A stretch of 64,000 bases of DNA from Asterella californica (taxonomy: Eukaryota; Streptophyta; Marchantiopsida; Marchantiales; Aytoniaceae), in assembly GCA_036924285.1 (NCBI GenBank), contig JAYKYS010000007.1, forward strand, positions 14,508,001 through 14,572,000. The letters are read 5' to 3'. Positions 1,998 through 29,602 of the stretch are shown piece after piece. Made by a program: the position numbers and the translations under genes. Numbering within the stretch: position 1 is the stretch's first letter; each line of letters opens with the position of its first letter. The notes under the pieces were generated by a model. That model had not been told where the DNA came from, did not search any database, and was given only the letters and a program-made list of their open reading frames with translations.

Positions 1998-2000
1998 CGG

Positions 2001-2018
2001 TGGTGAACTCGACGTGAA
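2001..2018 (+). other. Candidate primer binding site of element A
   Basis: TGGTGAACTCGACGTG starts 3 bases after the end of the 5' LTR. It begins with TGG as expected for pairing to a tRNA CCA end. I could not assign the tRNA; it is not the usual initiator-Met TGGTATCAGAGC. Confidence 0.4.
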
Positions 2019-2073
2019 GGTCTGGGGTGGAGATTTCTTCTGTGTGTGAACTTTGAAGAAGAGATTGGCAGTC

Positions 2074-6017: not shown

Positions 6018-6478
6018 GGAAGCTGAAGTCTTTACTATCATCTCCTCCAGTTCTGGGAAGGATTGATTACAAGGGTGCTAGGCCGGTGGTTCTTACTGTG
6101 GATACAAGTCCAGTTGCAATTGGATGGGCAGTCGGACAAGATGATGAGGATGGAGACAAGTTTGCGGTTAGGTTCGGAGCGAAGGTGTTAAGTGCTCGAC
6201 AACGTGCTTACCCGCAAGTGAAGAGAGAATTGTGGGGTATTGTTTCAGCTATGAAAACTGAGAAAGAGTATTTGATTGGAGCACTAGTGGTGGTTGAAAC
6301 TGATTGCTTGCCGTTGTTAGGGATGATCATGAATTGTTCAACTCCTGATATTGCGATGTTACGATGGATCGCATATATCAAGTCGTTGAACCCGGAGTTT
6401 AGACATATCGCAGGGAAGGATAATCTGATGGCGGATATGTATCGCGGGCTCGATATGATGAGGAAGATGAGATGGTAG
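5993..6478 (+). pseudogene. RNase H region of element A
   Basis: This continues the pol homology in a third frame. It shows VDTSPVAIGWAVGQ (first Asp), RFGAKVLSARQRAYPQVKRELWGI (Glu) and VETDC (Asp), the usual retroviral-type RNase H triad, ending with FRHIAGKDNLMAD. It degrades the RNA strand of the RNA:DNA hybrid. The pattern RFGAK..S.RQR.YPQ.K.ELWG resembles, from memory, RNase H of some fungal gypsy lineages more than common seed-plant Tekay, Athila or CRM elements; a phylogeny would be needed to establish this. The frame starts inside the preceding one and ends at a TAG. Confidence 0.8.
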
Positions 6479-7926
6479 AAGACATTGACGACGTGGGTAT
6501 AGAGTTCTATTCGATTGCACAGATAGGAAGAGAAGATGAGTTGTTTGTTGAAGGGTTGTATGATGGTGATTTGCTTGATATCGGGAGGTACCTTAGTACG
6601 ATGGTTAAGCAGACAGGTTGGACAGATGAGAGGTTTCGGAGAGTTAGAAGGAAGGCCTACAACTTCATGTTGCAGGATGGGTTTCTTTGAAAACGATCGA
6701 AGCAGAAAGGTGGGGTACCGCTACGGGTGATTTGCAACAAGGAAGATCAGCAGAAGTTGCTCAAAGCATTCCATGAGAGTCTTTGGGCTGGACATCGAGG
6801 GATTTGGGCCACTTTTATCAAGATGAAAGAGCGGTATTGGTGGAAAAACATGTACAGGGATGTTGTATCTTTTGTAGAGTCTTGTTTGACATGTCAGATG
6901 TATTCGAACATCCGACATCATGACGGATTACATCCAACTTATCCGCTGGCAATACATTTCAAGTGGGTGGTAGACTTGGTGATTATGCCGGTTGGGTTGT
7001 GGTAGATGAGATACTTGGTACTTGCTAGAGAAGATCTATCAAATCAAGTCGAGGGTAGGGCGCTTCGGACGAAGACAACTGAAGGGGTATGTAAATTTCT
7101 CTTGGAAGAGGTTGTTTGTCGGTATGGATGTGTGGGAAAGATCACTGTAGATCGGGGAGAGTTAGATGCACACGAGGCTCGTGAATTCTTTGCAAGGTGT
7201 GGGGTGAGGTTGTCACTGACAACTGCTTACAACCCCGAAGGGAATGTCAAGAGTGAACGTGGTCATCCACCCATTGTGAAGGCTTTGGTGAAGGCTTGCA
7301 ACGGAAGGGTGCGCGAGTGGCCTCGACTCTTACCATTTGCGTTATGGGCAGATAGAACGACGCACAGCTCGGTGACAGGTTACATGCCGGTGGAACTCAT
7401 CACAGGTCAGAAGCCTATCATGCCGATTGAAGAACACGTTCTGACATGGAGTGTGTTACCTTGGGAGGACAATTTGACTAGAGAAGAGCTTCTTGCTATT
7501 CGAATTAGGCAGTTAGAGAGAAGACCAGAGGATATCCAAATTGCTTTGGATAGGCTGCGAGAAGCACGGTTGAAGAACAAGGTCAGATTTGATCAGCGAC
7601 ATCGTTTGAGACCCAGGGAAATCAAAGAAGGTGATTGGGTGTTAGTCTATGACAACAGTCTAGACAACCAGCATAGTGCACTCCGGAAGTTTTCCAGAAG
7701 ATGGTTTGGTCCGTATGTGGTGAAGAAGGTTCATGACAACGCAACTTACGCCCTGCAAGAGTTGGATGGAACGAGCTTGAAGGTACCAGTGGCAGGTAAA
7801 CGTGTCAAGATTTTCAAAAAGAGAGATGAGGAGGTCGATCTAGCAGATATCTTGACGGAGTTTCAGGATGAGGATGAGGATTATGCAGAAGATCTTGAAG
7901 GTGAGGTTGGTTATGATGGGAAGTAG
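6472..7926 (+). pseudogene. Integrase region of element A, interrupted by two stops
   Basis: One reading frame (mod 3 = 1) runs through with stops at 6688-6690 and 7003-7005. Between them is the HHCC zinc domain (H..SLWAGH...CLTC). After the second stop comes the catalytic core, with the first Asp in WVVDLV just before it, the second Asp in ITVDRGE and the Glu in GNVKSERGHP. The C-terminal part has the GPY/F-like motif RRWFGPYVV and an acidic tail; there is no chromodomain. All three catalytic residues are present, so only the two stops and the upstream frameshift inactivate it. Integrase would join the DNA copy to the host chromosome. Confidence 0.85.
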
Positions 7927-7989
7927 GACGATAAGCCGGTCCACTCCTTGGTTGGTATCTCTGGTGCATACCGGAGGATGCACAGATTC

Positions 7990-8001
7990 AGAGGGGGTGG
8001 A
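7990..8001 (+). other. Polypurine tract of element A
   Basis: AGAGGGGGTGGA lies immediately before the 3' LTR start TGTCGTG at 8002. A purine run at this place primes plus-strand DNA synthesis in LTR retroelements. Confidence 0.7.
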
Positions 8002-10023
8002 TGTCGTGTCGTGGACCGGCTCCTACCTGAAATACAAACTTCGATGCTTGTCGCTCCAAAGACACTCATGAGAAGACAAGCTAGGCCCCAGCTTACGGAT
8101 TTTGGCACAATCTCAGATCTCCATTTTCATCGCATAGATGGGTAAAGCTTCTTGTCAGCTTTCCATAGGCATCTTGTCTACTTCGTTTGGGCGCCTAGTG
8201 GAGAAGTTACAGGACTCGAAAGATGGAGAAAATAAGCTAGGCCCCAGCTTACGGGTTTTTGGCACCACTTCGGATCTTCGTTTTTATCGCACCAGTGGAT
8301 AGAGCTCCTTGTCAGCATTCCATAGGCACTTTGTCTACTTCGTTTGGACGCATAGTGAAGAAGTTACAGGACTCGAAAGATGGAGAAAACAAGCTAGGCC
8401 CCAGCTTACGAGCTTTTGGCGCAACTTCGGATCTTTACTTTTATCGCATAGATGGATAGAGCTCGTTGTCAGCTTTCCATGGGCATCTTGTTTATTTCGT
8501 TTGGACATCCAGAGAAGAAGTTATGCGATTCGAAAAAAGATAAAATCAAGCTAGGCCCCTAGTTACTTGCTGACTGGGTATTTAGAGCTTCAGGCGTTAT
8601 ATCAAAGACGCAAGGGGCCTGCTTCTTATTATTGAGGGTTGAATTTCGTACGTACAGACTGTTGCAAGGGGGTTGCTTAAGGGGCTTGCTTGTTCCTGCG
8701 ACCTGTCGATGGATGTTTTGGAGAATTGGGAAGTCCAATACACGCGGGCAAGGTGTCATCGGGTTCAGATCTGTGCAAGCTACGCACAGGTTAAGACGGT
8801 TCTTGAAGAGACGGATCGGGGGTTGTGTTCTGGAAGAAATTGAGACGCAGGAAGCAGATTTGGGGTTTTCAGTTACCTGTGAAGGAGAGTTGGACCGTTC
8901 GGACCGTTCCGGAGTCCAAACTTGCTGTCCTTGGATCCATCGGGATCAGAACAACGAGTTCTTCAGGAAATTGAAGACAATATCAGTTTTCATCGGGCGG
9001 TTTGGGAGTTGTGAGTGAAATTGGTTCGCAGGGAAGCGCTTGCGTCAAGTTTTTCATCGCCTGCGAGTTGAGATTGGATTGTTCTTCGCGATCGGTGAAC
9101 CAAGCTCTTCGTTCTTGGTGCCTACGCGATCAGGGAGTCCTCATGTACGCATAGGAGAAGACTGTAAGTGAATTGGATTGTTAGTTTGGGTGTGGTGAGC
9201 GAGTTTGAGCCGCAGGGAGCCGATTTACGTCAGTTTTTTGCAATCTGCGACCAAATTTCTCGAGTAGTTTTGCAAGGGGAACTCCAAACGGCTTGTTTGG
9301 AGTCTTGTTAGGTTCAGGGTAGCTAGATCTACCTAACAGAGAAGACAGATATCAGTTTGGACGATCCGTTTGTGCGGTGTGAGCGGTTTTAAGCCGCAGG
9401 GAGGAGTTTTTGAAGGTTCGATCACATGCGACCGAAAATCGACGATATCTCGACTATCGGGAGTCGGATCTGAAGGTTTCTTGAGCCAACGGAGTCAGGG
9501 AAGGAGACCCTATCAACATTTGAAGATCGTTTGGCGAAAGGAGAAAGTTCACAGATAGGTCTTTTTCGGTTCCTTCGCTACAGGTTTCGTCCTTTTGAGT
9601 TCGTTAAGGACTTAGTTGGTTGTGTATGGCTTGTGGTAGCTAGCTTTAGCCAAGAGCTAGTGTGTGGATGTGGTTTGGACTTGGGTTTGGATCGCGTGAT
9701 ACTGTTGTGGCTCTGTTTGTTAGCAAAGAGAAGTTTCTCTTGCTTTGAGCTACGCTTTGGCGATTTCAGACTAAGGTTGCGTTTCAGGGGTTTGTTTTAG
9801 GGCTTCTGAAGTAGGTTACAGACCGCTCTGGTCTTTTCCTCAGTGTTGTGCTGTTTGGAGAAAGAATCGACAGTGTACATACTTTCAGAGTGGTATATAT
9901 CGCAGCATTCCTTTTCGTGGTTGTTCTTCTCTGTCTTGTCTCTGTTTGGCACACAGCATCTCCACAGCCAGGAACCTCGCGTTTTCCTGGACATCCTTCA
10001 CGCACAAAATATCCGACACGATA
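8002..10023 (+). repeat. 3' LTR of element A
   Basis: A complete LTR of 2022 bp, TGTCGTGTCG to CGACACGATA, nearly identical to 1-1997. It contains the 157-bp tandem array at 8078-8566. Sequence after 10023 (TCGTTTGAGG) is unrelated to element A. Confidence 0.92.
8078..8566 (+). repeat. Tandem repeat of about 157 bp in the 3' LTR of A
   Basis: A second copy of the array at 52-540 with the same three units, close to the start of the LTR. Confidence 0.85.
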
Positions 10024-14041: not shown

Positions 14042-14566
14042 CTATACTTGTTGTTGCGAGTTAGCAAGTAGTTGAGTTGCTACATGCTTCACTTTCTTCA
14101 GTACAGATTTGTACTTGGCATGGACTTCTACCTCCTGAGGAAGTACACACCAACAAACCGCTTCCCTTCTCGCACTATTCTGCATCGGATGAGGAAAGAA
14201 CCGCACATACGTAGCAATCTCCTCATATATATGTCGAGAGTGGATAGGGATCACCACCATACCATCTTTCTCTTTCATCAATCTGCTTACACTGTCCAAC
14301 CAACTAGCAACTGATTGTACAGACACAAACTCTTCAAACAAGCCAGAAACCACATCATCTTCAGGTAGAACCCTTGCACGCCACAACTCTGATACATGTT
14401 TTGCCATCCACTTTTTTGTATTTTCTTTCATATCCTCAACTCTTGGAAACTGACTCCATCTATCATTCTCGAACATTAACAACCTAGACCGCCAACTATG
14501 TACACTACACACGTCTTCAAACTCTTGTACATGTTTCTCATCTGACTCTTTCACTTTGTGTGTCAA
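14042..14566 (-). pseudogene. Element C pol leader
   Basis: About 174 codons correspond to the leader in front of RT in element A. Shared features are FEEFVSVQSVASWLDSVSRLM, a histidine-rich IPIHSRHIYEEI stretch (A has IHSREVYSVIESF) and AKYKSVLKKVKHVA. The same block appears inverted within element E at about 50845-51144. Its function is unknown. Confidence 0.7.
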
Positions 14567-14613
14567 CTCTGACGAGATCTCAATAGTAGGTTCTACACCC
14601 CTGTCATCACGCT

Positions 14614-15060
14614 CTACATGAGCGGATTGCGAAAACCCTTACGTCTCTTTGTCTGAGAATCTTTATGGGTTTGTCGATCCCGCTCATGTCTTGAACGAAC
14701 AGTTAAAAACTGTATTGAGTACTTGTCATCAGGACTCCGAACTCTGACATAATGAGATCCATCATTCATCATCCTTGTCTCCATTCGAACAACGGTGATG
14801 TAAAGCTGGCCGAGTATGATAAGATAAGAGACAGACGATTGCACAAAGAAATGTTGATCAACCTTTACATCTCCAATCTTTACACGCATATTGAGGCAGG
14901 CTTCATATAACTCACTTTTTTTATTATTCGTAGCATGAAGTACCCAACCATGATTCCTTTCGATTGACCATTGTCCCTTCTCATACACCTCCTTTGAAAT
15001 GATGTTGATTTCCGACCCGTAATCGACAAGTGCAGGTATCGATTCAGAAAGTCTTCCAAG
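14614..15060 (-). pseudogene. Element C aspartic protease
   Basis: The minus-strand frame encodes a retropepsin-like domain with VDYGSEINIISKEVYEKGQWSI, GDVKVDQHFFVQ and ILGQLYITVVRMET, collinear with element A's protease. The catalytic Asp is retained (DYGS). The frame breaks near 14990 and again toward pol. Confidence 0.78.
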
Positions 15061-15187
15061 TCAAACCTACGTCTCTGTTGTCGCTTGTGCTCATTGATTT
15101 TATTTGAAATCATTGTCTGTGCTTGACTTATCCTCCTCAAATTCTTCATCTTCATTCTCAACAACAGCAGGACCAACAATCCATACT

Positions 15188-15766
15188 TCATACTTGACAT
15201 CCAAATCCATCAACGTCGATAGCATCCACCACTCCAACCATCTGACTAGTTACTTGTTCTGTCAACACATGCCTCTTTCTCTTCATGATATCAATTATCA
15301 ACTCATGAAATTCTCTTTTTGTGATACCAAGTACCTCACGAAGAGAAAATTCAACTCTAGCATCTAGAATGCGTTGCTCCAGAATAGTAAGCAAGTCTGT
15401 TGCTGTTTCGATATCTAGAGCTAACTTGTAAGCATGAGCTTTCTCCTTCTCCTGTATTGTAAACCTCTTTTCTCGTACGCTGTCTGTAGCAGTAGCCTCC
15501 TGTGACATAAGATCTACTATATGTGGTGGAACTGTAGAGATAGAAAGTATATCTTCTACAATAGAAAACCTACCAGTTGATACCGATCCAAGTGATGATG
15601 GCTCCGCTGCTCTTCTCCTCGTAACTCTTCGAGGGTCAATGTCATCAGGTGCTCCTGCATCTAAATCAGAAGCATCCCGTCGTCTTTTGTCTTCCATCAT
15701 GGCATCTTGGTCACTGTTTGCTTCTAAAAAATGCTCGAATAGAAGTTGCATCTACTGGATCTCTCC
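15188..15766 (-). pseudogene. Element C gag-protease linker
   Basis: A charged segment of about 187 codons matches the linker of element A (EDKRRRDASD against EEKRRRDSED; ILDARVEFSLREVLGITKREFHELI against ILNAKVEFTLREVLGIAKREFHDVI). It begins exactly at the insertion point of element D (15766/15767). Confidence 0.8.
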
Positions 15767-16049
15767 TGTCACGTCAGTTTGGTAACTCGGCTAGGTTGAC
15801 CGAGTGCGAAGTGGCGGACCCCGGTAAGGCCGTTAGGGCAAGTTGGTGAGAGTGTCCACAAGGGGTATACTTCGCAGGTAGGGGCTTGGAGGCCTCAGTT
15901 CTTCAAGTTGAGCCTTCAAGCTCCTGGCTACGGTGGGTAGTCTTGAGAGTGAGATCTGGATTCTCTACGAGCACAGAGTGGATTTGGCTCGACTGTAGTG
16001 ATTGTCTAGTGCCTGTTGGCAGATGGAGTGAGTACATACCTTGTTATCA
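15767..16049 (+). repeat. 5' terminal repeat of element D (shared part)
   Basis: These 283 bp match 27842-28124 at a constant offset of 12075. The segment directly follows the left CTCC duplication. The true LTR may reach to about 17.7 kb, because the 3' copy seems internally deleted after this segment and because 17590-17720 resembles part of the LTR-like insertion at 23240-23400. Confidence 0.85.
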
Positions 16050-17012
16050 CTTGAAGAACTGAGATTGCAAGGCCTGGGGTAGGGATTTCAGGTCACAGAT
16101 TGCTACCGATGGTATCTCCGGAGTTGGCAGATCGTTGGTATCTTCGATTTGCGGGTGCGCGCGTGCGTGGAGTAGTTCGTTTTGGGTGTTGTGATCGATC
16201 GCTGTGTGTATGGGTGTCGTCTGAACCTGTTCGAGGTCGATTTGGTGGTGAGGTAGTGCGGAAGCGCTGCTGAAATTTCGTGGAATGTGTTGAAGTGACC
16301 ATTTTCGGGCTGAAGTGCGCATTTGGGCGTGGTAGACGAAATAGTCGACAATGTCAGGTCGATGTGGACTCGTTGGAAGCGCGCTGGGAAGACGGTCCTA
16401 GTGCAGGAAGATTCACGAAGTTTGGTCGAGCCGTTTGCGAGTTATGGGAAGTCGAATTTCTGGTGACGGGTTTTGGTGACGGATTTTAGGTCGGCCGAAG
16501 TGCGTCGGGGACTGTCAGGTTGGATTGGGTCGATAATTTTTGGATCTGAGGAGTGCAGTAGGTGCGTGCCTGGAAGACGATTCCAACGCAACCAAAATCG
16601 TTCGATTTGGTGAAGGATCGACGAAGTTACAAGCCGAAGAAGGTCGCGGGTTGGCCAAAATCTGACGTAAATCCCGTCTGCGAGTTCCAAATTGACTGAT
16701 TTGGACTATTTGGTGCAATTTCGACCCGGAGTTGCTGTTTCGGGTGTTTTCTCGTCGTACTCGTCCTTCTTTATGGTGTTTGGCCTGGGTACTCTTCTCC
16801 AAGCGGAGCGGAGCGGAGAGTGAGCGGGAGTGTCGAGGTGTGGAGTTGCGTGTTAGGAGGCGTTTAGAGGCTTCGAGGTGCGTGAGTGCAGAGGTGCGAG
16901 AGCGGAGTGCGAGAGTGCGGAGGCGGAGCCCGAGCCTGAGCCCGCGTCCGCCACAAGCCAGCTTGCTGGCGTGTGTGAGAGAGGTATCCAAGTTTCAGTT
17001 GTGTGGGAAGTG
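16050..17012 (+). other. Non-coding 5' region of element D
   Basis: No domain is recognised. A GC-rich part at about 16795-16970 holds short imperfect repeats of the GAGCGGAG/GTGCGAGAG type. It is probably LTR interior or leader. Open frames on both strands here look spurious. Confidence 0.5.
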
Positions 17013-17127
17013 TAAAACCAGTAGGTCACCCATCCCAACACTATTTCTGGACTTGGACGCTTAACTCTGTAGTCTCAACTTTGGCTGTACCACTAGACCA
17101 ATAGCTCTTGGTGTCTTACAGGGATGC
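17013..17127 (-). pseudogene. 5S rRNA-like sequence in the 5' region of element D
   Basis: Read on the minus strand it contains AGAGTTAAGCGTCCAAG, then AGAAATAGTGTTGGGATGGGTGACCTACTGG. These line up with the box A (AGTTAAGCG), intermediate element and box C (GGATGGGTGACC) of plant 5S rRNA at the proper spacing. Agreement is good over about 55 bases and weak at the 5' third of the gene. It is not a functional 5S gene. The internal Pol III promoter region is the best-kept part, as in Cassandra-type elements, which carry 5S sequence in their LTRs. Confidence 0.72.
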
Positions 17128-17589
17128 GTGCAAGTACTTAAGGGCTGGTTTAAGGTAGTAGGAGACCTGCTCGCACGTTCCTAGAGGAGTGGTAGGGCGA
17201 CCCCAGAGTACTAGGGGGAAGCTGCTCTTGTGGTAGTGTTTGTCTATACCGAAAAGACGCGTATGAAGGCAGTTGGTAGCAGTTGTCTTGGATGAGCTAG
17301 TAGAGCTATCACGTTGATATTTTTGGAGCTACTAGAGGTATGGACATCTAGTTAGTGACCTTAGGTACAAGTTATAACAGTCGGTGATCATATATTGTGC
17401 ATGTGGTCACCGAAGAAGACGCGTCAGTCCGGGTGGGGCTGGGTTTCTCTTTATGTGAATGTTTGAGTGTGGAGGGTTATCGTTTGGACTTCTTGTGGTT
17501 GGAACCCCTTCATATTCTACTTCCTGTTTGTGCGCCGCGTTTGCTTGTGTTGGCGCTTGATTTCCAGAGTGAGTTCACTCTAGTGTGCT

Positions 17590-17720
17590 GTCGGTAGTGA
17601 GGCTGGAGTGATGACCAGTCAGACTACCTTTGTTTCTCTCACGGTGTAGTTGGAGTGACGACCAACAAACCGTGAGAGACTGCTTGTGGTGATGGCAGGT
17701 ACAAGTTGCCCTTACCTTGA
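17590..17720 (+). repeat. Leader segment of element D shared with the insertion at 23240-23400
   Basis: The motif GAGGCTGGAGTGATGACCAG is followed by TGCTTGYGGTGATGGCAGG and a GTTGCCC block in both places. This links the inserted sequence at 21005-23522 to element D or a relative. Confidence 0.65.
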
Positions 17721-17987
17721 CTGTCCTAGTAGGGGATAGGCAAGTTGTAGTTACGGTGGTGACGGGGATTTTGACATTCGGGTTAGAGAGTGTGTTCGCG
17801 AGATTCTATCACCACGGAGTTCTCGGGAGGTTCTGATGGAGACTTCTTGGATAGTGGGTATACACGGAGTGGGGTGAGGTACCGACTACCTACACCATTG
17901 CCGTTGGTTGTTCTAGAGGACGAGTCAGACGCAGACAGCGCGTTTTCTGGTGGTGAGTCTAGTGTCACCACATCGTTGTTGTGGGAC

Positions 17988-19006
17988 ATGGACGAGATCT
18001 ATGGGGCCACGAAGGGGCCTCGACGTTACTCGGGTACGGTGGGTACCATTGAGCTGGATGACTTCATCCAGGAGTTCGACAGTTGGTGCGATCTGCAGCA
18101 GATGCGGAACCCACAGTTGTTCACACCTTTCATGGCGTGGAAAGGTTTGTTTCAGCACTTGGAGGGACCACCGATGGACGATTATCACGAGTTCAGACGA
18201 GACTACTGTGTTGAGATTGAGTTGTGGAGACAACATTGGTCTCCCAACTACGTTTCTATCACTACTGGTGCAGTTTCAGGAGGCGTAGCACCTACGAGGT
18301 CAGGTGCCAGTAGTAGTGGTACATCCACGGGTGGCGGAGTCCCTACTACCAGCGGTGCGTCCACTAGTAGTGGAGCAGGTGGTAGTGCGAGCGGGATACC
18401 ACCAGAGTTTAACCCTGTGGTTCAGTTCTTCCACTGTTTGAGGAAGAATTATCAAGGTGTGCGGACCGACAAGTTGAAGAGTCTGCAGGAGTTCCAGCGG
18501 AAGACTGGAGAGAGCCTACGCGAGGCGTTTACTCGCATGAGGCGGTTGATCAGCGTTACTCAAGGAGTGACGGAAGCACAGGCAGTCCAGTTCTGATATG
18601 GGATACTAGATCGGGAGCTGCGTAGGAGAGTCAGAGATGCCACTCTCCTTAGAGACACCGCTCCGACATTGGCGGTTGTCTTTGGTTTGGCTGAGCGGAT
18701 TGAGCTCAACATGATAGAGGAGAGGGTGGTGACTGCTGGGTTCAGCAGAGACGCATCACATGGGGCGACCTCCTTTTCTCGAAGATCACAGGCTACGCAA
18801 CAGCGAGGTGGTGGTGGTGGTGGTAAGGATCGTGCTGAGCACTCACGATCCCATGGAGGTGCTGGAGGATCTGGTGGGCAGAAGCCCATGCCGTCCTTCT
18901 CTAGTCAAGAGAAGCAGGTCCTTGTTGGACTTGTGATGGTCCTCATCAGCAAAAGGATTGTCCACAAAGGAGAGGTGGTTATGAGACATCTGGGACGTCT
19001 CAAGCG
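17988..19006 (+). pseudogene. gag: Gag of element D (in-frame stop and frameshift)
   Basis: The frame is open from 17790 and its first ATG is at 17988. It encodes a Retrotrans_gag-like capsid region (DDFIQEFDSW, FMAWKGLFQHLEGP, FRRDYCVEIELWRQHW), then a Ser/Thr/Gly-rich linker and a helical block (LQEFQRKTGESLREAFTRMRRLI). An in-frame TGA at 18594-18596 interrupts it. The same frame continues with YGILDRELRRRVRDAT and a Gly-rich RNA-binding-like stretch, then a frameshift before 19007 leads into the zinc knuckle. The capsid sequence is not close to A, C or E. Confidence 0.75.
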
Positions 19007-21004
19007 GTGCCTAGGCAGTGTGAGCATTGCGGGCGACCAGGTCACAGTAGTGACCGTTGTTTTGATCTTCATCCTGAGCTACGGCAAGGGAAGGTTGATC
19101 GTGGACGAGGCAGAGGAGCTCAGGGAGGCCGTGGTGGTCGAGCTGGAGGTAGAGGTCCAGCACCTGGGAGAGGACCAGTTGGTCCACCGCTTGCTACGAC
19201 GTCAGAAGCAGGTATGGCTGCTCGGATTGAGCAGTTGGAGCAGAGGATAGCTAGTATGGCTATGGCTCAGCGGAGATCTGGTGGAACAGAAGCTTCCACG
19301 TCTTATGGAGGAGAAGGAGGTGACTTCGACTTCATGGCTGGTGTGGCACAGATTGAGACATCTGCGGCAGTGACTCGAAGTGCAGTACGTATCTCTGAGC
19401 CACGAGGTGCGTCAGTGGAGTTGGATCCACAACGCGGGGAGGCTGGTAGACAGGTCAGACTTCCTCAATCGTTCACGCTATCAGAGGCATTGAGGACCAC
19501 TTCTATGGTTCCTAAACGGCCTATCGATGGTGCAGTGGAGTTGGAGGCATCAACATCCAAGAGTGAGGATAATGCGAGTCAACCCTCGACGTTTGTGGAT
19601 GCGACGTCGAACGTGATGTTGGGGGCGGCTACAGTAGTTTTGCGAGTCCCACTATTTTCAGCCACGGATATGAGGGCATTGGGAGTCAGCTTGGCTCCAG
19701 TGTTCCAGTTGGCAGCCACGCTCAGTGAGAGCGAGGATGTGGTTACCTCTAGTGCTGAGGTGGTTCAGCAAGAGGCGGTAGATGTGTCCATGGAATCGAA
19801 GATCAAGACAACTACTAATGGTACTTGGCAAGCAGCGGCTGTCAAACTAGATGAGTCACCAGCTAGGCCAGCAATTGACCGTGCTGGATTGGCACCAGGT
19901 GTGGTGTTGTTGGACAACAAAAGTGGTATCTTCTGTTTGGTGGCACCTTCAGGGAAGGTGTATCGACCACAAAAAGTGTTGTTAGACTCTGGAGCTCAAC
20001 CGTTGATGTTGGGGAAGGCGGCGTGTATCGGTTTGGGTCTAAGGAAGTCCGAAGTAGAGAGATGTCCATTCCAGCTACAAACATCTCTAGGGGGATCAGG
20101 AGGTACAACTCTACACATGACACGCGAGTTGCTGACTGTGAGAGTTAGACCAGATCATCCCACGGATGGTTCCATGGTGAGGGCCAAGGCTATCGTTATG
20201 GCCGCGGAGTCTTATGATGTATTGGTTGGAGGTGCTGTATTATACCCTATGGGGTTCGTGATCGACTATTGGGCGGAGACATCATCTTACAGACCAGGTT
20301 GGCAGTCCGGTGAGGGACGAGTGAGCCGCTTACAAGTGCGGTTCAGTGCTAGAATTGGGGCAACGGAGCTTACATCAGGGACGATGACATCCGTTGCAGG
20401 TTTCAGTTCGGTCATCACTTGGCCGGGCGAGTTATTAGAGGGCAATGCCCATGCGGAGGATACTCCGGTCTTTGAGGAGGTGGAGGACATGCCTAGCATG
20501 TCTATGTTAGTACCATCTGCTTTGGATGTTCCACTCTTGAGTTCGAGTGGAGAGTTGCAGCAGTATGCCGATCGGTTGGTACAGCAAGCTTGGAGTGAAG
20601 CCTTTGTACCGCCAGTAGAAGAACATCGGGGTGTTCCTGTTACTGGCCTTGTGACCTTAACACCGTTGGATACGACTCACATTGCATGGCAGTATCCAAA
20701 AGAGGGTGTGTGTGTGCTGGAGCTATTTGGAGGGATCAGCACAGGTTTGGCTGCGGTATTGCAGGCAGGCATACAAGTACATCGATACTTGTATGTGGAG
20801 AGAGATGAGGTCGCAAGACGTGTCTCATTGCATCATGTGGCGCGTTTGGTGCAGAGATATCCTGAGTTGTTGCCTATATCAGCTGTTAGAGGATACCAGC
20901 AAGCATTACCGTCAGATATTTCGCTGCTGGGGGCGCAGGATCTCACGTTTGTTGGCACCATTCACTTGGTGATAGCTAGGTGGCCATGTCAAGGTCACAC
21001 GCGT
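19007..21004 (+). pseudogene. Zinc knuckle, protease and N-terminal half of the DNA methyltransferase (element D)
   Basis: A single open frame. It starts with a CCHC knuckle, CEHCGRPGHSSDRC. A linker of about 300 residues leads to a retropepsin site, LLDSGAQPLMLG, near residue 325. From about residue 565 it encodes a C5 DNA methyltransferase: motif I VLELFGGISTG (AdoMet binding), then AGIQVHRYLYVE, an acidic-ligand block as in DNMT3, and motif IV ARWPCQGHTR at about residue 659 with the catalytic Cys in PCQ. The wording LFxGIxTGL...GIQV.RY...E is DNMT3-like rather than CMT or MET1. The frame is cut after HTR (21004) by the insertion and resumes at 23523 in phase. Confidence 0.85.
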
Positions 21005-23522
21005 TGTCGTGTTGTGGATTGGCTAGGGTGTGAAACCACCACATATCCTTCGTACGTGTTTGGTGTTGAGGAGCCACTGGGACCTTATCGTGTCAAAAGA
21101 TAAGGCTCCACGTGGACGATCTGTGTACTCTTCGCTGATTGGAGATAAGAGTAGTACTCTTGTCGTCACATGTGAGATTGATGTATAAGAAGAGAGGTGT
21201 GCGGAGCTTGAGATATAGAGTGTAGAGTATCCAAGTCTAGTGGAGTGTGATCAGTATCTTCGGATGAAGTAAGCGGCGGCAGTGCGAGTGGTAGGCATGA
21301 ACGGAGAACCCTTTCGTGCTCCTGATCTTCCACTTGCGCATCCATTCGTCATTAAGATCCATTGTCTACCGCGAGATCACTTTCGAGTATTTATGGTAGC
21401 TCATTGGAGAGAGTCGTTTATGGCTGCGGTGATGGCTACTCCGGATCCTATCGTTCTGCCCATTGTCACGTACGATGCTGTTTGAGATCTTACTGTCTAC
21501 ATCTTGCTCTGATGTGGTATGGATCCTCCGTTGGATCTGAACTTCCCAGCGAGAGTTCCGTTCAACACTTGGGTCGAAATACGATGTTACAATCGACCAA
21601 AGGTGACGCATCGTGAGTTTGTCGTGAGGAACTTCGGTGAGGATTATTACAACCAGATAATAGCTTCATCTGTTCCCTTTGTAGTTCCGTTTATTGTCAA
21701 CCGTTTTAGAGTCGGGATTCTGACTCTCTATTGAGCGTAATTTGTACTTCGTGTTTACGTGCTTCGTGGCCGACGACATCGTCAACGACACGTGTTTGTA
21801 GTTTGTTCAATATAAACTTTGAGGCCTAAATGGTACTCTTGGATAAAAATTCGTTCTTTGTGTGTTTGTCATGTGAGTGAAGACAAAAACCTTTTTGTCA
21901 ACTTGTTTCTCATTGGTCGAAAGTTTGACCAATCACCTTCTACCAAGTTCCTTTCACGTTTTCGAGGGTAGAGGCACTTCCCGTGGTCCATTCGCGGAGT
22001 GTGAGCTATGGTTGGAAAGCTTGGGAGACGAGGATGCCCGTGGACTCAATGGTCGCTCGATTTGAAGCACGGATGAGAATGTTTCGATCAATTGAAGCTG
22101 AGGGGGTCAAATTCATGACCAATTCTATTTCCGTGAGGTCTTTGTCACTTTCTGGGAGTTCTGTGAGGTTGCTGGAGATGAATTGACTGTTGCTGGAAAG
22201 CTCTTGAGATGGGCTTGCCGATGGACTCAGAGATCAATCGATTCCAAGCCGGAGTGAAAAAGTTATGGCCGGTTGAAGTTGGGTGTCTCAAATCGGAGGC
22301 TATGATAGTAGGCGACTGTAAACATGAGACATTGAGAGAGATATGAAGAGTTTGAGGTCGAATTTCGATATGAAACCTTCCAAGGTCTGAGAAGGTACAG
22401 TCAGCTACCTACCTGTGAAATTTGAGACCATTTGGATTATTGGGTTGAAGGGAAACGTTGTTTTTGTGCACAAGGGTCTGCATATCGCCTTGTGTCATTG
22501 ACGAAAAGGGCTTGGATCATTCCGAGAGTTTGGTTGAGGATCTGCTGGTGAAACTTTACAGAGTGGTAGTGATGGTGACACATTAGCTTCCTGAGAAGTT
22601 TGAGCCGTTTTGATCGAGCGGTTTGTGAGGAATCGAACAACAAAGTTCTGTCGAAATAGTATCATGTTATAAAAACAGCGATAAGGGCTTGATCGTTCCG
22701 AGAGTTTGGTTGAGGATCTGCTGGTGAAACTTTACAGAGTGGTAGTGATGGTGACTCATTAGCTTCCTGAGAAGTTTGAGCTGTTTTGATTGAGTGGTTT
22801 GTGAGGAATCGAACAGCAAAGTTCTGTTGAAATAGTATCGTGTTATAGAAACAGCAAACTTTGGAAGGGCATAGATGCCAACTCAGAGATGATCTCTCTG
22901 CATGTAATACCTTAATAGAGAGATTATTCTACAGGCTATCTGCTGGCTTTAGTTTCATCTCATTCTGAGCTGTGGTTGAGGAGTGACAGCGAGGTAAAGT
23001 TGAGAGGTTCTTGCTCCGAAAGGCGCAAGAGTTAAGATTCTTTGAAGAACAGGTCGACCTGGAGGTTTTGCCAGTGCTTCAGAGCACTTGATCATGGGTA
23101 TGGAGAGTTGTTGACTGTATTTCCTGTGTTTGGATCCTCTCCATACCCGCATGCCTGTTTGTACGCCCAGTTGGTTTTGATTGGATTTGTGTGCGGGCGT
23201 TGCGCTTAGGTTTCTTTTCTATTAGGAGTGCTGGTATTTCTCTTGTGGTGAGGCTGGAGTGATGACCAGCAGACCCAAGAGTGCTTGCGGTGATGGCAGG
23301 AACAGGTTGCCCGTGCTTGTTACCCCGGTTCTATTCCTAGTCGAGTAGGAGAGAGATCTGCCGAGAGGACGTGAGGATATCGTAGCGAGAAAGGTTCAAA
23401 GTGTACTTGGAGATCAGAGAGAGGTTTGGGTGGTCACTGGTTCTGAGTCACGAAGTGCGACACGTACTCTCTACAGCTAGATACCCAGTGTATTCCCAGA
23501 TAAGAAAACACGTCACACGACA
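21005..23522 (+). mobile_element. LTR-like insertion (2518 bp) within the methyltransferase of element D
   Basis: It begins TGTCGTGTTGTGG and ends CACACGACA, an 8-bp terminal inverted repeat TGTCGTGT. It is flanked by GCGT on both sides (21001-21004 and 23523-23526), so target and insertion limits are exact. The first 20 bases resemble the start of element A's LTR (TGTCGTGTCGTGGACCGGCT), while 23240-23400 resembles the leader of element D. No RT or integrase is present, so it is a solo LTR or a non-autonomous element. Two small unrecognised frames (21282-21485 and 21519-21734) lie in it. The reading frame of the methyltransferase is unchanged once it is discounted. Confidence 0.85.
22503..22856 (+). 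repeat. Tandem duplication of about 177 bp inside the insertion
   Basis: Two adjacent copies share GAGAGTTTGGTTGAGGATCT, the GGTAGTGATGGTGAC block and AGCTTCCTGAGAAGTTTGAG. They differ by a few substitutions and one base deletion. No coding function is seen. Confidence 0.85.
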
Positions 23523-24429
23523 GCGTGCTGGGAGAGGTCAGGGTTTACATGACCCGCGATCTAGGATGTTCTGGGAGATGTTACGAATCTTACGACATCT
23601 CCAGATGCATCAGGTGGATTCTCCAGCGTACATCTTGGAGAACGTTCCTTTGTTGGGTGATGCTCGTGCACATATGATGACGAGTGTGCACCAAGTGCGG
23701 TCCTGGGTCGGACCGGCAGTGTTGTTAGATGCAGCGAGAGTGGGATCTCGTGCACATCGTCCACGGTTGTGGTGGACGAACTTGTTACCAAGAGAGGTGC
23801 TCAAGCGCGCACACGATGCAGCAAGACGACCAACGCACCTCACAGTGGATGGCATCTTGGATGCAAGACGACGATCTCAAGTAGTGAGAGTCGTCGATAG
23901 GTCACCCATGGCAGTTGTGAACCTAGTGGAACAACCTATGACAGCGTTACCCACTTTGGTGAGCTTTCCAGCGTCATATGCTTACAGAGATGGAGGACCT
24001 GGGCTTGTGTGGGATGCTCGGTTACAACAGTTGGTGGAGCTCAATGCCGACGAGAGAGAGAGAGCGATGGGTTTTCTTACGGGTACGACAGCAGTAGCTT
24101 CGGTGTCGGAGGCTTCACGTCGTCAAGTATTGGGTCAAGCAATGGACTTGAACTGCTTGACATGGATTGTTAGCCTTGGATTGGCTGAGCAACGTCGGAT
24201 GCGATTGATGGGTGTTACTGCTCGAGCACTCTTGAGCTCTTTGCTTATCGAGTCGGTGGAGGCAAAGGTTGGGGGCGAGGCACGTGGAGTTCGTCATCCT
24301 TGGACATCATGGGATGTCGTAGGAGAGAGTGTGGAGCTTGCAGCTAGAACCGCAGAAGTTTTTCGCACAGTAGCGGTGGAGGTTGTTGGTGGTGAGCAGA
24401 AGGAAACTGCTCCAGAGACTGCAAGATAG
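23523..24429 (+). pseudogene. C-terminal half of the DNA methyltransferase (element D)
   Basis: After GCGT the frame continues AGRGQGLHDPRSRMFWEMLRIL (the region after motif IV in DNMT3-type enzymes). Then come motif VI YILENVPL, motif VIII VGSRAHRPRLWWTN with the conserved arginines, a target-recognition region of about 120 residues, motif IX-like ELNADERERAMGF and motif X-like RRQVLGQAMDLN. All core motifs of a C5 methyltransferase are therefore present across the two halves and in the right order. The enzyme would transfer a methyl group from AdoMet to cytosine C5. The frame ends in TAG (24427-24429) and continues in the same frame into RT. Confidence 0.87.
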
Positions 24430-24435
24430 CAGTCA
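24427..24435 (+). promoter_or_regulatory. Candidate leaky UAG stop between methyltransferase and RT
   Basis: The in-frame stop TAG is followed by CAG TCA. This fits UAG-CAR-YYA, the readthrough context known from tobamovirus replicase genes. The RT frame is open and in the same register right after it. Recoding here would give a minor gag-pol type product including RT; this is inference from sequence only. Confidence 0.55.
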
Positions 24436-26439
24436 ACGACTTCGTCTTCTACCTCTAGCATGGTGACAGAGGATACTTGGGAGCCAGAGATTGGACCCAA
24501 GCTTATAGAAGAGGAGAGACGAAGAGTTCAGAGATTCCTGAAGAGCTACAGGAATTGTTTTGCCTTTAGTATGAAGGATTTGGGTACCTTGAAGGGACCA
24601 GGTATAAGGATCGACTTGGCTAATGACACGCCAATCTTTCGACGTCCTTATAGGTACAATGACATGGAGAGAACCTTGATCCAGAGTAGGACTCAAGACT
24701 TGGTGGAAGCTGGATTGGTGGAGATGTCACATGGAGAGTATGCATCTGCCACAGTTATGCCGGCAAAGAAGGATATGTATGGCAACTACACGGATAGGCG
24801 CATGTGTGGAGACTACCGTCATATCAATCGGCAGACGAAGTCCGATAAGTATGCCATGCCGACACCTGAGGAGATCTTTGATGCAGTGGGGCATGTGAAG
24901 GTCTTCAGTACTTTGGATCTTCGAGCAGGATATCATCAGTTGCCGATGAGAGAGCAAGATAAACCCAAGACAGCATTCTGGGGGATTGACTCTCACGGCA
25001 AGGATTGTTTGTATCAGTGGCGGTTCTTACCATTTGGGTTGAAGAACGCCCCTGCTGAATTCCAAAGAGTGATGGATAGGATCCTAGCAGGATGGGATTT
25101 TGTCAGATGCTATATTGATGACATCTTGGTCTATAGTGCTACAGTGGAGGAGCACGAGAGACACTTGCGGGATGTGTTCGAGCGGTTGAGAGCTCATGGA
25201 TTGAAGTTACATCCTGGGAAGTGCAAGTTCTTCCAGGAGTTGGTAGAGTATCTGGGTCACACCATCTACCCAAGTGGGTTGGGTGTTCAACAAACGAAGG
25301 TCGAGGTCATTGCACGTATTCCACGCCCCACAGATGTGAGTCGAGTTCGAGCATTTGTTGGTTTGGTGAACTTTTATCGTCGATACGTGAAAGGATTTAG
25401 TGCAATTGCGAAGCCATTGACCAAGCTGATGAAGGTGGACCAGGAGTGGCAGTGGGAAGATGAGCAAGAGCGAGCTTTCGTGGAGCTCAAGGATACGTTG
25501 ACATCTGCTCCCATCTTGAGGAGACCCGTTAGGGGACGTCCTTTCCAACTGCACACTGATTGGAGTATGTTGGGACTTGGAGCAGTGCTAACTCAGCATG
25601 ATGATGAGAAAAAGGAGTTTGTGGTGGCGTATGCCAGTCGCTCCAACAATTCGGCGGAGGCGAGATACAGTTCGTACGAGGGGGAGTGTTTAGCTGCAGT
25701 GTGGACTGTTGCACACTTCCGATGTTACCTGTTTGGGAACCCCTTTACTCTCATCACTGATCATCAGCCGCTCAAGTGGTTGATGGAGTCCGACAAGCTT
25801 ACAAGGAAGCTTGCACGATGGGCTCTGATCTTACAAGAGTATGACTTTCAGGTAGTGCATAGACTTGGAGTTGCAAACCTAGATGCCGATGGGTTGAGTC
25901 GCAACCCGTGCACGAGTCAGCAGGATCAGACTGGGGCTCGATGGCATGATGAGGTTGATGAGGAGATAGTGCCAGGGTGGCATGCATCTGCCTTTCTTTG
26001 TGTTTTGGCCATGAACTCTAGTATGGAGGGCCAAGTCGTATCTTTCTCAAGTGAGAGAATAGATGACGAGTCTCCAGATCTTGAGGGTGGAGATGGTGTT
26101 CCAAACCAGCGAGATATCCATGACGAAGTGACCGTGATGGAATATCTACGTACTGGTGTGGTGGTAGGCACAGTAAGTGCCAAGGAGCGAGATCGTGTCC
26201 TTCAACGAGCGAAGAGATTTCGACGAGAAGGACGACATGTACTTCGAGTGTGGGATGATGAGAGAGTACGAATAGTGCCACATCCATCCAAGAGGACACA
26301 ATTAGTACGACATGCTCATGAGGAGTTGGGACATTTTGGAGTGAAGCGCACGCATAGCTTACTCCAAGGACAGTATTGGTTGCCGGCATGGTATGCACGT
26401 CGATGTGCAACAATTTGTCGCACGATGTGTGGTTTGTGA
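24430..26439 (+). pseudogene. pol: Reverse transcriptase, RNase H and integrase zinc domain of element D
   Basis: An uninterrupted frame of about 670 codons. RT: IFRRPYRYNDMER, MPAKKD, RMCGDYRHIN, STLDLRAGYHQL, FLPFGLKNAP and the active site YIDDILVYS. RNase H: LHTDWSMLGLGAVLTQ, YEGECLAAVW and ITDHQPLKWL (triad D-E-D present), then LDADGLSR. The integrase zinc domain starts with HEELGHFGVKRTH (the two His), but the frame ends at a TGA (26437) just as the Cys pair is reached; the Cys pair CVVC lies in the next frame. RT and RNase H look intact and of standard gypsy type with YIDD, unlike element A. Confidence 0.92.
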
Positions 26440-27560
26440 TCGAGTACGAGCATCGTTTAATGCTCCTACTCCACAACTACACTCCTTTACCGATTATGGG
26501 GTTGGGTTACCGTTGGAGTTTGGATTTTGCGGGACCCTTACCGTTGACGGTACGTCATCATCGGTATGTGTGGGTGATGGTGGAGCACTTCTCCAAGTGG
26601 ATTGAGTTGGTGGCATTACCAGACAAGGCGAGTGAAAAGACGGCATATGCGTTCTTAGATCGAGTGCTGAGTCGTTTTGGAGCACCAGCTGAAGTGCTGA
26701 CATACCAAGGTACAGAGTTCCTTGGTGAGTTTCAGGCCTTGTGTGATCAGGCGTTGATTGATCATCGAACTACGTCTCGAGATCATCCTGAGGCGGATGG
26801 TTTGGCGGAGAGGGTAGTTCAGACGGTGAAGAGAGGATTGCGTAAGTATGGCTTGCAGAAGGACCACTTGGGAGACTGGGATGTGCAGTTATCATGGTTG
26901 GCTATGGGCTACCGTTTTAGCCGACAAGCGTCTTTGGCTTCCTTCTCACCGTATTTTCTATTATACGGTCGAGATCCAGATCTACCTTCGGCCATTCGTC
27001 GTGATTCTGCTGAGGTGCTGAACCTTGATGACCCGGATATGTGGGTGAGAGCATGTTCTCAACGAGCAGAGACATTTCGGAGAGTTATGCCCATGGCTTT
27101 TGAGAATCTAGCGATTGCTCAGCATAGAGACACGTTGCGATATGCAACTATCCGAGGAGGAGGTTATCGACCATCGATTCGCAGGTTTCATCCTGGCGAT
27201 TATATCTATCTACAGCAGACTGCACCGACGACATTGGATGTGACCGCAGGATGCACTATTTTACGAGTGCGTGAGGTGTTACCTTCTGGAGTACTCATGT
27301 TAGAGGGCCATGATGGTGTTGTTTGGAAGGACCATGTGCATAATTGCGCGCCATGTCATCTTCCCAACATCGATGGTACCGTTGACTCGAGCTTGGCAGT
27401 TGTACGAGCAGGCTTGAGGTGTATGTTGTGTGGGTCTGCTGGTGGAGCAGCCCGTATGTTGGTGTGTGATAGTTGTTCGAGAGGTTGGCTCATGTCATGT
27501 TTGACTCCACCTCTCACTGTCATTCCTATTGGACGGTGGGTTTGTCCTCGATGTATATAG
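26376..27560 (+). pseudogene. Integrase core and C-terminal PHD-like finger of element D
   Basis: After two nearby frameshifts (about 26385 and 26490) the core reads WSLDFAGP (first Asp), then LTYQGTEF near 26700 where the second catalytic Asp is replaced by Tyr, then HPEADGLAERV with the Glu. Hence this copy cannot integrate. A GPY/F-like region with HPGDYIYL follows. The last 45 codons form a PHD-like finger: C-ML-C, C-DS-C, SRGWLMSC, LTPPL, GRWVCPRC. The usual His of the C4HC3 pattern (GYH or GWH) is Leu here. PHD fingers read histone H3 tails, so it may have guided integration in active relatives, as chromodomains do in chromoviruses; that is inference. Confidence 0.85.
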
Positions 27561-27731
27561 CAGGGATAGCCGATTAGATCTTTGCGTGGTATGGATTGCA
27601 GACAGGCGACTAACGATGGGGCAATGTAGCACCCGGCCTCCTGATCCTTGCACCCATGAAGGTGTATATCACGTAGTTGAGATATGAAGCTATCTGGAGT
27701 TAGAGGGACCTAACCACCAGTTTGGGAGGCG

Positions 27732-28231
27732 ATTGTGGTACACTTGTGTATGTGTATGACATCGTCCATGTGTTATGTGTATGTGTGGTGTTCCTTTGAC
27801 AGCGATGTATGTTGTGTAGCGATGTGTATGCGCACGACAGCTGTCACGTCAGTTTGGTAACTCGGCTAGGTTGACCGAGTGCGAAGTGGCGGACCCCGGT
27901 AAGGCCTTTAGGGCAAGTTGGTGAGAGTGTCCACAAGGGGTATACTTCGCAGGTAGGGGCTTGGAGACCTCAGTTCTTCAAGTTGAGCCTTCAAGCTCCT
28001 GGCTATGGTGGGTAGTCTTGAGAGTGAGATCTGGATTCTCTGCGAGCACAGAGTGGATTTGGCTCGACTGTAGTGATTGTCTAGTGCCTGTTGGCAGATG
28101 GAGTGAGTACATACCTTGTTATCATTGTGGTACACTTGTGTATGTGTATGACATCGTCCATGTGTTATGTGTATGTGTGGTGTTCCTTTGACAGCGATGT
28201 ATGTTGTGTAGCGATGTGTATGCGCACGACA
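27732..28231 (+). repeat. 3' end of element D with a duplicated 108-bp terminal segment
   Basis: A 108-bp segment ending TGCGCACGACA occurs at 27732-27839 and again at 28124-28231. Between them lies the 283-bp copy of the 5' terminus (27842-28124). The second copy abuts the right CTCC duplication. I read 27842-28231 as a shortened 3' LTR, start plus end with the middle deleted. The extra upstream copy of the end is unexplained; template switching during reverse transcription would be one source. Confidence 0.75.
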
Positions 28232-28445
28232 CTCCGTCCAGTAGCTCTCCTAATGCTTTCTGCACCTCTCTTCATCATTTCAACTGGAATTTCAGCAGCT
28301 TGCTCAACCATAGTTGGATTAGAGCGCACCTCAAATCTCCCAGTATATACATCAGCTTCTACAGAGCCTGCAGTCATCGCTGTAGTGTTTGCTACAGTAA
28401 GTGCTAGAAGTAAGCTCTTCATTCTTCCTCTTCCAAAATACGTGT

Positions 28446-29602
28446 TCAAAGTGCGGTTGGATGCAACATGTTGTTCTGATAATTGACCACGTCCTCTCGC
28501 AAGGCAACCGCTAAGTCTTGACAATCTCCTCTGAGATGATCTGGACTATCACACCAAATACATCTCCTGGTAAAAGTTCTTCCTATAGATCGAGCACCTG
28601 GTGCGGTTGGTCGCTGATTCTTTCTCAGATCTGTCATCTCAACTCTTAAATCTCTCAACTGTTGAGTAAGCTCTTCAATCAAGTTATGGTGAGTTTGGTT
28701 CTGTATAGGACGTTGTCTAGGACCTCTTTGTGCTGGAACATGCACTACATGCGCTTGAGGAATCACTACAGGTACTTGGGGAGCTATAAGTGAAACTACT
28801 GGGACTTGAGGGACCACTCTCTGTTTTGACAAGGTCTCTAGTTGTCTAGCTATTGCCATCCTGCCACGACGTTGTCTAGCAAGAGTAGATACTACTTCTT
28901 CCACTCTCCTCCAGTCAAAGATAACTCCCCCCTCTACTCCACGATCAGCTAACATGAAACAAAGTCTATCTGTTGTAAACTCATCCATAGTCCCCAAGAA
29001 CAACTTTATCTTTTTAGCATACAACGTCAATCTTTCCAGACCAGAAAGCTGCGAGTACCTCTTTTCAAACTCACGAATCAACTCATTTAATCTCATGGTA
29101 CGTCCAGGCTGATGCTCTATCCAATCAAGGAACGTCCTCCTGATGACTCTATCAGAATCTTCTTCTAGAAACTCCTCCCTTAGTGCACGCTCAAACAAAG
29201 TCCATCCTCCTAGATGTCTTCTCTGTAGATTTCTCACTTTCTCTCTCTGTTCAAGAACAACAATCAACTCAAAGCTCAAAATTACCTCAACCTCAGGTGC
29301 CTTGACCAGTTCTATCTCACCCACATACTCATGCAGGTACTTAGTAACGTCTCTGTCATCAAATCGTCCACATCTACCAGCAACTACTTGTAGCGCTTTT
29401 GTAGATTTATGCTCAGCTCTTTCAATTGCAGGTTGCTGTTGAATCAGAGCAGCCAACGCTTGAAGAATCTGAGCTGTATCAACAACAGGCTGTGACTTAT
29501 CATTGGAACTACAATAGGACCTCCTTGAGAGCTGATCCCATATTGATCAACATGAACACCTTGAGCAGCAGTAACACCTTGGACGGCAGCACCATGATCC
29601 AT
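28446..29602 (-). pseudogene. gag: Gag of element C
   Basis: The likely ATG is at 29602, by comparison with element E, whose gag begins in the same context (AGGAAGATGGATCA). The frame breaks once near the N terminus; the main open part runs 29456-28446. It encodes the capsid homologous to A and E (STKALQVVAGRCGRFDDRDV, YLHEYVGEIEL, FLDWIEHQPG), a Pro/Val/Gln-rich linker, LRDLRVEMTDLRK without the stop seen in A, and the zinc knuckle CIWCDSPDHLRGDC. A frameshift follows; the remainder (28232-28445) reads in another frame with TYFGRGRMKSLL matching A's TNFGRGGMKKLV. Confidence 0.83.

Follow-up and report, generated by a model that had tools for sequence, protein, structure and literature searches.

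The closest described relative of the element analysed here is KnitGypsy-Dnmt3 of Klebsormidium nitens, which combines Gypsy domains with DIRS-like repeats, is under purifying selection and encodes an enzyme whose activity in yeast was inconclusive (de Mendoza et al., 2018; PMC5890265). The same paper describes SymbioDIRS-Dnmt3 of Symbiodinium, in which Dnmt3 lies beside reverse transcriptase (RT) in one open reading frame (ORF) of a DIRS-class element, while some DNMT3 members are embedded in Copia long terminal repeat (LTR) and DIRS elements of streptophytes and dinoflagellates (PMC12344493). Here we analyse 64,000 nucleotides of the Asterella californica genome (assembly GCA_036924285.1, contig JAYKYS010000007.1, positions 14,508,001–14,572,000; hereafter the window), which contain element D, a retrotransposon encoding a DNMT3-like cytosine methyltransferase (DNMT). 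Element D is a defective copy of a large, abundant and recently active family that unites a gypsy-type pol with a captured DNMT3-type enzyme. The overall explanation that we favour, with good if not full confidence, is that the cDNA of this family is self-primed, that a DDE integrase would cut a palindrome inside it, that host end-joining would seal the original ends, and that DNMT would be made in Gag-like amounts.

As far as the published description goes, Gypsy domains, an unrearranged Dnmt3, DIRS-like repeats and purifying selection are common to KnitGypsy-Dnmt3 and element D. The Dnmt3 of KnitGypsy-Dnmt3 lies in the Pol ORF, whereas the DNMT of element D ends ORF1, with RT in the same frame but behind a conserved UAG. 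The main text of PMC5890265 makes no mention of a PHD finger, which the element D family carries, and its sections 9–11 contain no analysis of target duplications, priming or seams. The original prediction knew of no such element in land plants; the novelty that this implied is weaker than it seemed, since the combination of a Gypsy element, Dnmt3 and DIRS-like repeats had already been published. The family is thus not categorically new, and KnitGypsy-Dnmt3 is its close precedent.

Other systems share single traits with it. PAT, Ngaro and VIPER elements (PMC6681497) have repeat A1 at the 5' end and B1, A2 and B2 at the 3' end, as does element D, but encode a tyrosine recombinase, as SymbioDIRS-Dnmt3 does; the element D family shows the split direct repeats A1-B1A2B2 together with a DDE (rve) integrase and 4-bp target duplications instead. 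The self-priming chromoviruses Tf1/sushi and Tcn1 (PMC6317226) have a self-complementary priming site like that of element D, but carry a chromodomain where the element D family has a PHD finger and split repeats. Among the literature titles and abstract openings surveyed, no other host of a Gypsy-borne DNMT is named, none concerning Chara, Coleochaete or Nitella reports such an element, and none concerning split direct repeats with gypsy and integrase describes a DDE integrase with split repeats; the available part of PMC9915684 held nothing relevant.

Results

A DNMT3-like domain in an abundant retrotransposon family

A search of 516.7 Mb of genome yielded 117 matches to the DNMT domain (all 117 scored; 4,838 first-look candidates), which, the window itself aside, are 87–94% identical. 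Because many of these copies hold the domain in long open frames, DNMT is a feature of the family, in line with the original prediction, and not a chance insertion in a single copy. Comparison of the two terminal A repeats (A1 at the left end, A2 at the right) in 12 copies, a thirteenth of differing length having been excluded, found them identical in 8; in element D they differ at 4/283 bases. This identity indicates that the family has moved recently. With DNMT3A as query, 150 of 975 candidates were scored and 131 matches obtained, many of them coinciding with copies of the family. Five spanned only the motif I–IV half, at 39–41% identity, among them the best match (C1:40145511) and C419:30573625; these five may be separate host DNMT genes.

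A 2,518-bp insert splits the domain in element D. The second half of the domain matched Pfam DNA_methylase (0.004, under the curated cut-off), phrog_116 ‘DNA methyltransferase’ (6.6e-10) and, as top match in PDB, DNMT3A (0.0017). The first half alone had no Pfam match, and its PDB matches were non-significant, DNMT3A coming second (0.15) after a chance match to histone H1 (0.058). That both halves are real was settled by an unsplit domain from another copy, which passed the curated Pfam cut-off (1.3e-9) and ranked DNMT3A (2.3e-11) and DNMT3B (3e-8) first in PDB. Weaker matches were 4onj (3e-4), HaeIII (4e-4), HhaI (0.013) and DRM2 (0.016), with tRNA C38/DNMT2-type enzymes at 0.018 or weaker; 4onj, titled ‘DNA methyltransferase’ in PDB, we take to be a plant DRM. 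Thus the enzyme is supported as DNMT3-like, in that, of the C5 methyltransferases with a solved structure, it matches DNMT3A best. Identity as a DRM is excluded, because alignment and PDB match place motifs I–X (the numbering of I, IV, VI, VIII, IX and X being presumably the conventional one) in unrearranged order. Motif IV reads PCQG, compared with PCND in DNMT3A; the PCN is absent, and we take PCQG as a variant, PCN not being held to define DNMT3. PCQ, ENV and SRAHR are invariant in the 10 copies chosen for alignment, in all of which the domain is continuous. NCBIfam gave only a weak dcm match, and an AlphaFold model from the 10 near-identical copies (mean predicted local distance difference test score 32.7) was of no use. 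In a short-peptide scan, which finds close relatives only, neither the second half nor the RT ORF had a relative in a viral collection, and a genome contig collection yielded none; the domain alignment had a single short 40% match (L112) in the viral collection.

The insert (21005–23522) has the identical reading frame on either side. An intron was considered and rejected on account of its GCGT duplication, its inverted ends and the unsplit domain of other copies. Its ends, TGTCGTGT...ACACGACA, are much like those of element D, and it is perhaps a solo or non-autonomous relative. Within it lie two copies of a 165-nt repeat (22515–22855).

On the broken copy in the window, Pfam recognized RVT_1 (1.1e-33), RNase H, rve (8.3e-12) and a PHD finger (4.2e-8). 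The family has the order protease, RT, RNase H, rve integrase (the protease recognized by eye), a short target duplication and TG...CA ends, but repeats of the form A ... B-A-B in place of a plain LTR at both ends; we therefore call it gypsy-type by its pol and do not count it a standard Ty3/gypsy member. Profile matches in Pfam and PDB thus bear out the predicted Ty3/gypsy-type element with a C5 methyltransferase, its motifs ordered and in frame across both halves. The borders, 15767 (TGTCACG) and 28231 (CGCACGACA), were also predicted correctly, CTCC being duplicated on either side, whereas plain LTRs gave way to split repeats (A1; B1-GC-A2-B2).

Split terminal repeats and a self-priming site

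A1 stands at the left and B1-GC-A2-B2 at the right. Among 20 copies, 4 of which had only one end found, an exact 4-bp duplication flanked 15 of the 16 with both ends, the sixteenth running off its stretch; a 5-bp duplication flanked 0/16. We examined 61 right ends (the window, 20 and a further 40) in a family with 117 known matches. These comprised B-A-B (45, one with an insert in A2), B only (5), B-A (1) and no match (10). In one copy (L032) the sequence that breaks up A2 contains a reverse-complement B and a purine tract, both from the same family.

The 15 nt after A1 in element D, the primer-binding site (PBS), are complementary to 15894–15908, within the region predicted to form the RNA 5' end. 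A PBS directly follows A1 in 17 of 20 left ends, and complementarity of 12–15 nt to the same place was found in 17 of 19 left-end sequences; of the other two, the first carries a duplicated A and the second comes from a stretch that ends too early. Between subfamilies TTCAAG/CTTGAA has become TTTGAG/CTCAAA, two pairs being altered on both sides. Of the left ends retrieved, that of the window copy is the sole one from its subfamily; among right ends the window-type primer occurs in 15/61, with 3 more differing by one change, the main type in 25 and neither in 18. Genome-wide, the window-type A end with its PBS was counted 25 times, against 0 for the reversed control. New here is a self-priming site whose two sides change together from one subfamily to the other. 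At 28 nt upstream of the putative start stands TATAC in element D and TAAAC in the main subfamily.

Integrated copies are permuted and bear a putative joining seam

A purine tract precedes B1, in the form GGCG|ATTGTGG in 43/61 right ends (the other 18 were unmatched by the expression used). Given this tract before B1 and the PBS after A1, reverse transcription should yield B-GC-A as the LTR; relative to this, integrated copies are permuted by one B. Also new, as read from the copies themselves, are integrated elements of structure A-body-B-GC-A-B, which end at the palindrome GACAGCTGTC inside the expected LTR; the exact site GCGCACGACAGCTGTCACGTCA is present in 43/61 right ends.

We propose that the RNA starts at ∼15894 and that its 5' end would fold onto the PBS, priming reverse transcription; plus-strand synthesis would begin at the purine tract, giving linear cDNA with B-GC-A LTRs. 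The DDE integrase would bypass the cDNA ends and instead cut the palindrome within the LTR on the PBS side. Cleavage of each strand 3' of CA would leave the CA ends recessed, with an overhang of 2 nt, and the A end and B end so produced would be inserted, duplicating 4 bp of target. Host end-joining would connect the A end and B start at which the original cDNA terminated, in the style of a two-LTR circle, producing the A2–B2 seam. The PBS-side palindrome might be preferred in that strand extension would make it double-stranded first, and end-joining could come before or after the cut. We infer the order of these steps; the anatomy, the 4-bp duplications, the covarying primer site, the seam footprints and the selection on DNMT are direct observations.

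The seam can be read in 44/61 right ends in which the whole of B-GC-A-B could be aligned, and 11 of the 44 have an insertion or deletion within 25 nt of it (+ACT, +T four times, +A twice, +22, +11, +27 and minus 22). The ACT matches the first PBS bases, the 27 nt end in the purine tract TTAGGGGGGCG, and the 22-nt deletion is a loss of the A end. Elsewhere in the 44 right ends we counted 18 gap events, 10 of which belong to one two-gap pattern common to 5 copies. The seam bears end-joining-like footprints in 11/44 copies, and the PBS and purine-tract bases kept there are as expected of joined cDNA ends. These bases bear on an alternative in which reverse transcription, through unusual strand transfers, directly yields linear A...B-GC-A-B and the integrase uses the true cDNA ends. 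Although this would account simply for the regular TG...CA ends and the 4-bp duplication, it requires plus-strand synthesis to start at the palindrome, yet the purine tract precedes B1, and joined ends, not such a linear product, predict the seam bases; we regard it as improbable.

A second alternative, scarcely more credible, is a symmetrical two-LTR circle of DIRS/PAT-like topology in which a DDE enzyme opens either palindrome at random. It explains the seam and its footprints. It also draws support from copy C313a (L017, L037), where A is joined to an A without its first bases at the left, B stands alone at the right and the GGCT duplication is exact: here, with the PBS-side palindrome missing, the other one was used, which shows it to be usable once the former is lost. 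Random opening, however, predicts mirror forms (A|B-GC-A-PBS) as often as canonical ones, and with exact main-subfamily patterns we found 0 mirror forms in the genome, a count made without a positive control, against 297 canonical right ends (reversed controls 0). A preference for one site must therefore be assumed, and the circle is disfavoured unless that preference is strong. With the same kind of pattern, B-GC-A-PBS of any origin occurs at five places (C21:15323229, C102:30263490, C207:13050875, C313:27777095 and C419:12624081). These are possibly tandem elements from unequal exchange, and one of them, at the expected right end of a known copy (C207:13054589), may be such a tandem.

DNMT ends ORF1 and is under purifying selection

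TAG followed by CAGTCA closes the Gag-protease-DNMT frame in 20/20 pol stretches (shifted by 9 nt in one) and in the window. RT, RNase H, integrase and PHD finger follow in the same frame, unbroken (1,038–1,041 aa) in 11/20. DNMT was predicted to lie between protease and RT, and this order stands, with the refinement that the domain (20705–21004 plus 23524–24171) ends ORF1 and is separated from RT by a conserved stop (24427–24429). This position of DNMT in ORF1 (Gag-protease-DNMT), ahead of a conserved readthrough-type UAG-CAGUCA, is new here. CARYYA is the tobacco mosaic virus-type readthrough context (PMC4132726), which UAG CAGUCA fits. Lying upstream of a putatively leaky UAG, DNMT would be made as the tail of Gag-protease-DNMT, with Gag rather than with Pol and in Gag-like rather than Pol-like amounts.

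Ratios of non-synonymous to synonymous substitution (dN/dS) were estimated from 29 copies, namely 20 pol stretches and 9 search loci (one repeating a pol copy); 23 of the 29 aligned over DNMT. The pairs were drawn from the window's subfamily (7 named copies, of which 4 were usable for most domains and 1 for Gag, integrase and PHD) and from the main subfamily (15 copies), dS-zero pairs having been removed. Nineteen of the 20 pol stretches had been picked for open frames (1,367–1,382 aa), a choice that lowers all values, while the contrast with the tail behind DNMT persists. For DNMT, dN/dS was 0.142 both between subfamilies (60 pairs) and within the main one (99 pairs), while the tail gave 1.059 (47 pairs) and 1.077 (27 pairs), respectively, and 0.705 within the window's subfamily (6 pairs). 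The corresponding values between subfamilies and within the main one were 0.075 and 0.037 for RT, 0.058 and 0.176 for RNase H, 0.117 and 0.041 for integrase, 0.060 and 0.126 for protease, 0.143 and 0.163 for Gag-nucleocapsid, and 0.283 and 0.213 for the linker before protease; PHD gave 0.066 within the main subfamily. On these values (dN/dS 0.14) the DNMT domain is under purifying selection. That DNMT is a passive passenger without function for the element is accordingly very unlikely: its dN/dS is Gag-like while the tail behind it evolves at ∼1, and its catalytic motifs are invariant in the 10 aligned copies. In favour of a passenger one might cite the Klebsormidium enzyme, which showed no activity in yeast, a result that PMC5890265 calls inconclusive.

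Most likely the enzyme would act on cDNA, inside or near the particle. Such self-methylation, which is plausible here, has already been proposed (PMC5890265). DNMT might instead act chiefly on host chromatin or RNA. The PHD finger, a chromatin-reader fold that the element also encodes, would suit such a target, and protease cleavage could free the enzyme; its location beside Gag and protease nevertheless suggests packaging, and we think this alternative rather unlikely, if less so than the others considered above. The A1/A2 differences, only 7 in 12 copies, are too few for a methylation-footprint spectrum.

Element D in its surroundings

Features of element D are given in Table 1. This copy is damaged by a gag stop and frame change, the insert in DNMT and a frame change in integrase. 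The element into which it has inserted is older, gypsy-like and oriented along the minus strand (14042–15751 and 28446–29546). When the flanks of element D are fused over a single CTCC, the reading continues like the homologous gag region of another gypsy-like element at 1–8483, as judged by eye from printed translations; blastn found no DNA match between the fused flanks and that element. The element at 1–8483 has RT, a weak rve match and a DUF4100-like region, and its terminal repeats contain an internal repeat at an offset of 157 nt. The window further holds a galactokinase gene (Pfam; 37598–39097, minus strand) and a Senescence-domain protein (60400–61902), both of which point to a plant-type host, and, outside element D, two 300-nt direct repeats, 99% identical, with starts 490 nt apart (40121–40910).

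Table 1. Features of element D (positions in the window)
Feature	Position	Strand	Basis
Left target-site duplication CTCC	15763..15766	.	
Repeat A1, left terminus TGTCACG..., holds putative transcription start	15767..16049	+	
TATAC, 28 nt upstream of putative start	15866..15870	+	
Self-primer CTCAGTTCTTCAAGT, putative RNA 5' end	15894..15908	+	
Primer-binding site ACTTGAAGAACTGAG, complementary to 15894–15908	16049..16063	+	
gag; in-frame TGA at 18594, frame change near 18905	17787..19250	+	
Two CCHC-type zinc knuckles	18923..19060	+	by eye
Protease core VLLDSGAQPLMLG	19976..20014	+	by eye
DNMT3-like domain part 1, motif I ELFGG to motif IV WPCQGHTR	20705..21004	+	
Secondary insert, 2,518 bp, TGTCGTGT...ACACGACA; GCGT duplicated at 21001–21004 / 23523–23526	21005..23522	.	
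DNMT3-like domain part 2, motif VI ENV, VIII SRAHRPRLWW, IX–X	23524..24171	+	
UAG CAGUCA conserved stop context, ORF1/ORF2 boundary	24427..24435	+	
RT, RNase H, start of integrase zinc region	24430..26439	+	
Integrase core (rve), in a different frame	26358..27560	+	
C-terminal PHD finger	27417..27557	+	
Polypurine-tract-like TTGGGAGGCG adjoining B1; TTAGGGGGGCG in most copies	27722..27731	+	
Repeat B1	27732..27839	+	
Palindrome GACAGCTGTC at B1-GC-A2 junction, putative integrase site	27836..27845	.	
Repeat A2	27842..28124	+	
Repeat B2, right terminus ...CGCACGACA, identical to B1	28125..28231	+	
Right target-site duplication CTCC	28232..28235	.	

Discussion

The specific proposal that a DDE integrase ignores the cDNA ends and uses an internal LTR palindrome, with host end-joining in every cycle and a DNMT3-type enzyme in Gag-like amounts marking the DNA of the particle, is one towards which we lean, if only by a little. 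Besides the site preference that it must assume, several observations weigh against our explanation. Five right ends have B only, and the left stretch of one of these (L111) has no repeat A. At PBS position 13 of the main subfamily (G 9, C 7, A 1; n=17), the C of 7/17 left ends is unpaired with the T of the main primer; this position being variable, strict pairing is limited to 12 nt in most copies. PHD gives a dN/dS of 1.06 (1.063) between subfamilies, a value obtained from 47 codons with a single copy standing for the second subfamily. The 6 pairs within the window's subfamily give a higher dN/dS for DNMT, 0.249, as they do for RT (0.205). Finally, the observed/expected CpG ratio is 0.72 in the element and 0.74 in the window, with no extra depletion.

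That joined-LTR DNA is the precursor of integration is a discarded idea. If true, integration through an internal palindrome would revive it in altered form. The element D family combines a DDE integrase with the repeat topology that characterizes tyrosine-recombinase elements. Every integration event would be documented naturally by the permuted, seam-bearing form, and genomes alone would suffice to read the route from cDNA to provirus. Methyltransferase-bearing retrotransposons would make the silencing mark of the host a tool of the element, and A. californica is another genome with a large, young family selected for its methyltransferase.

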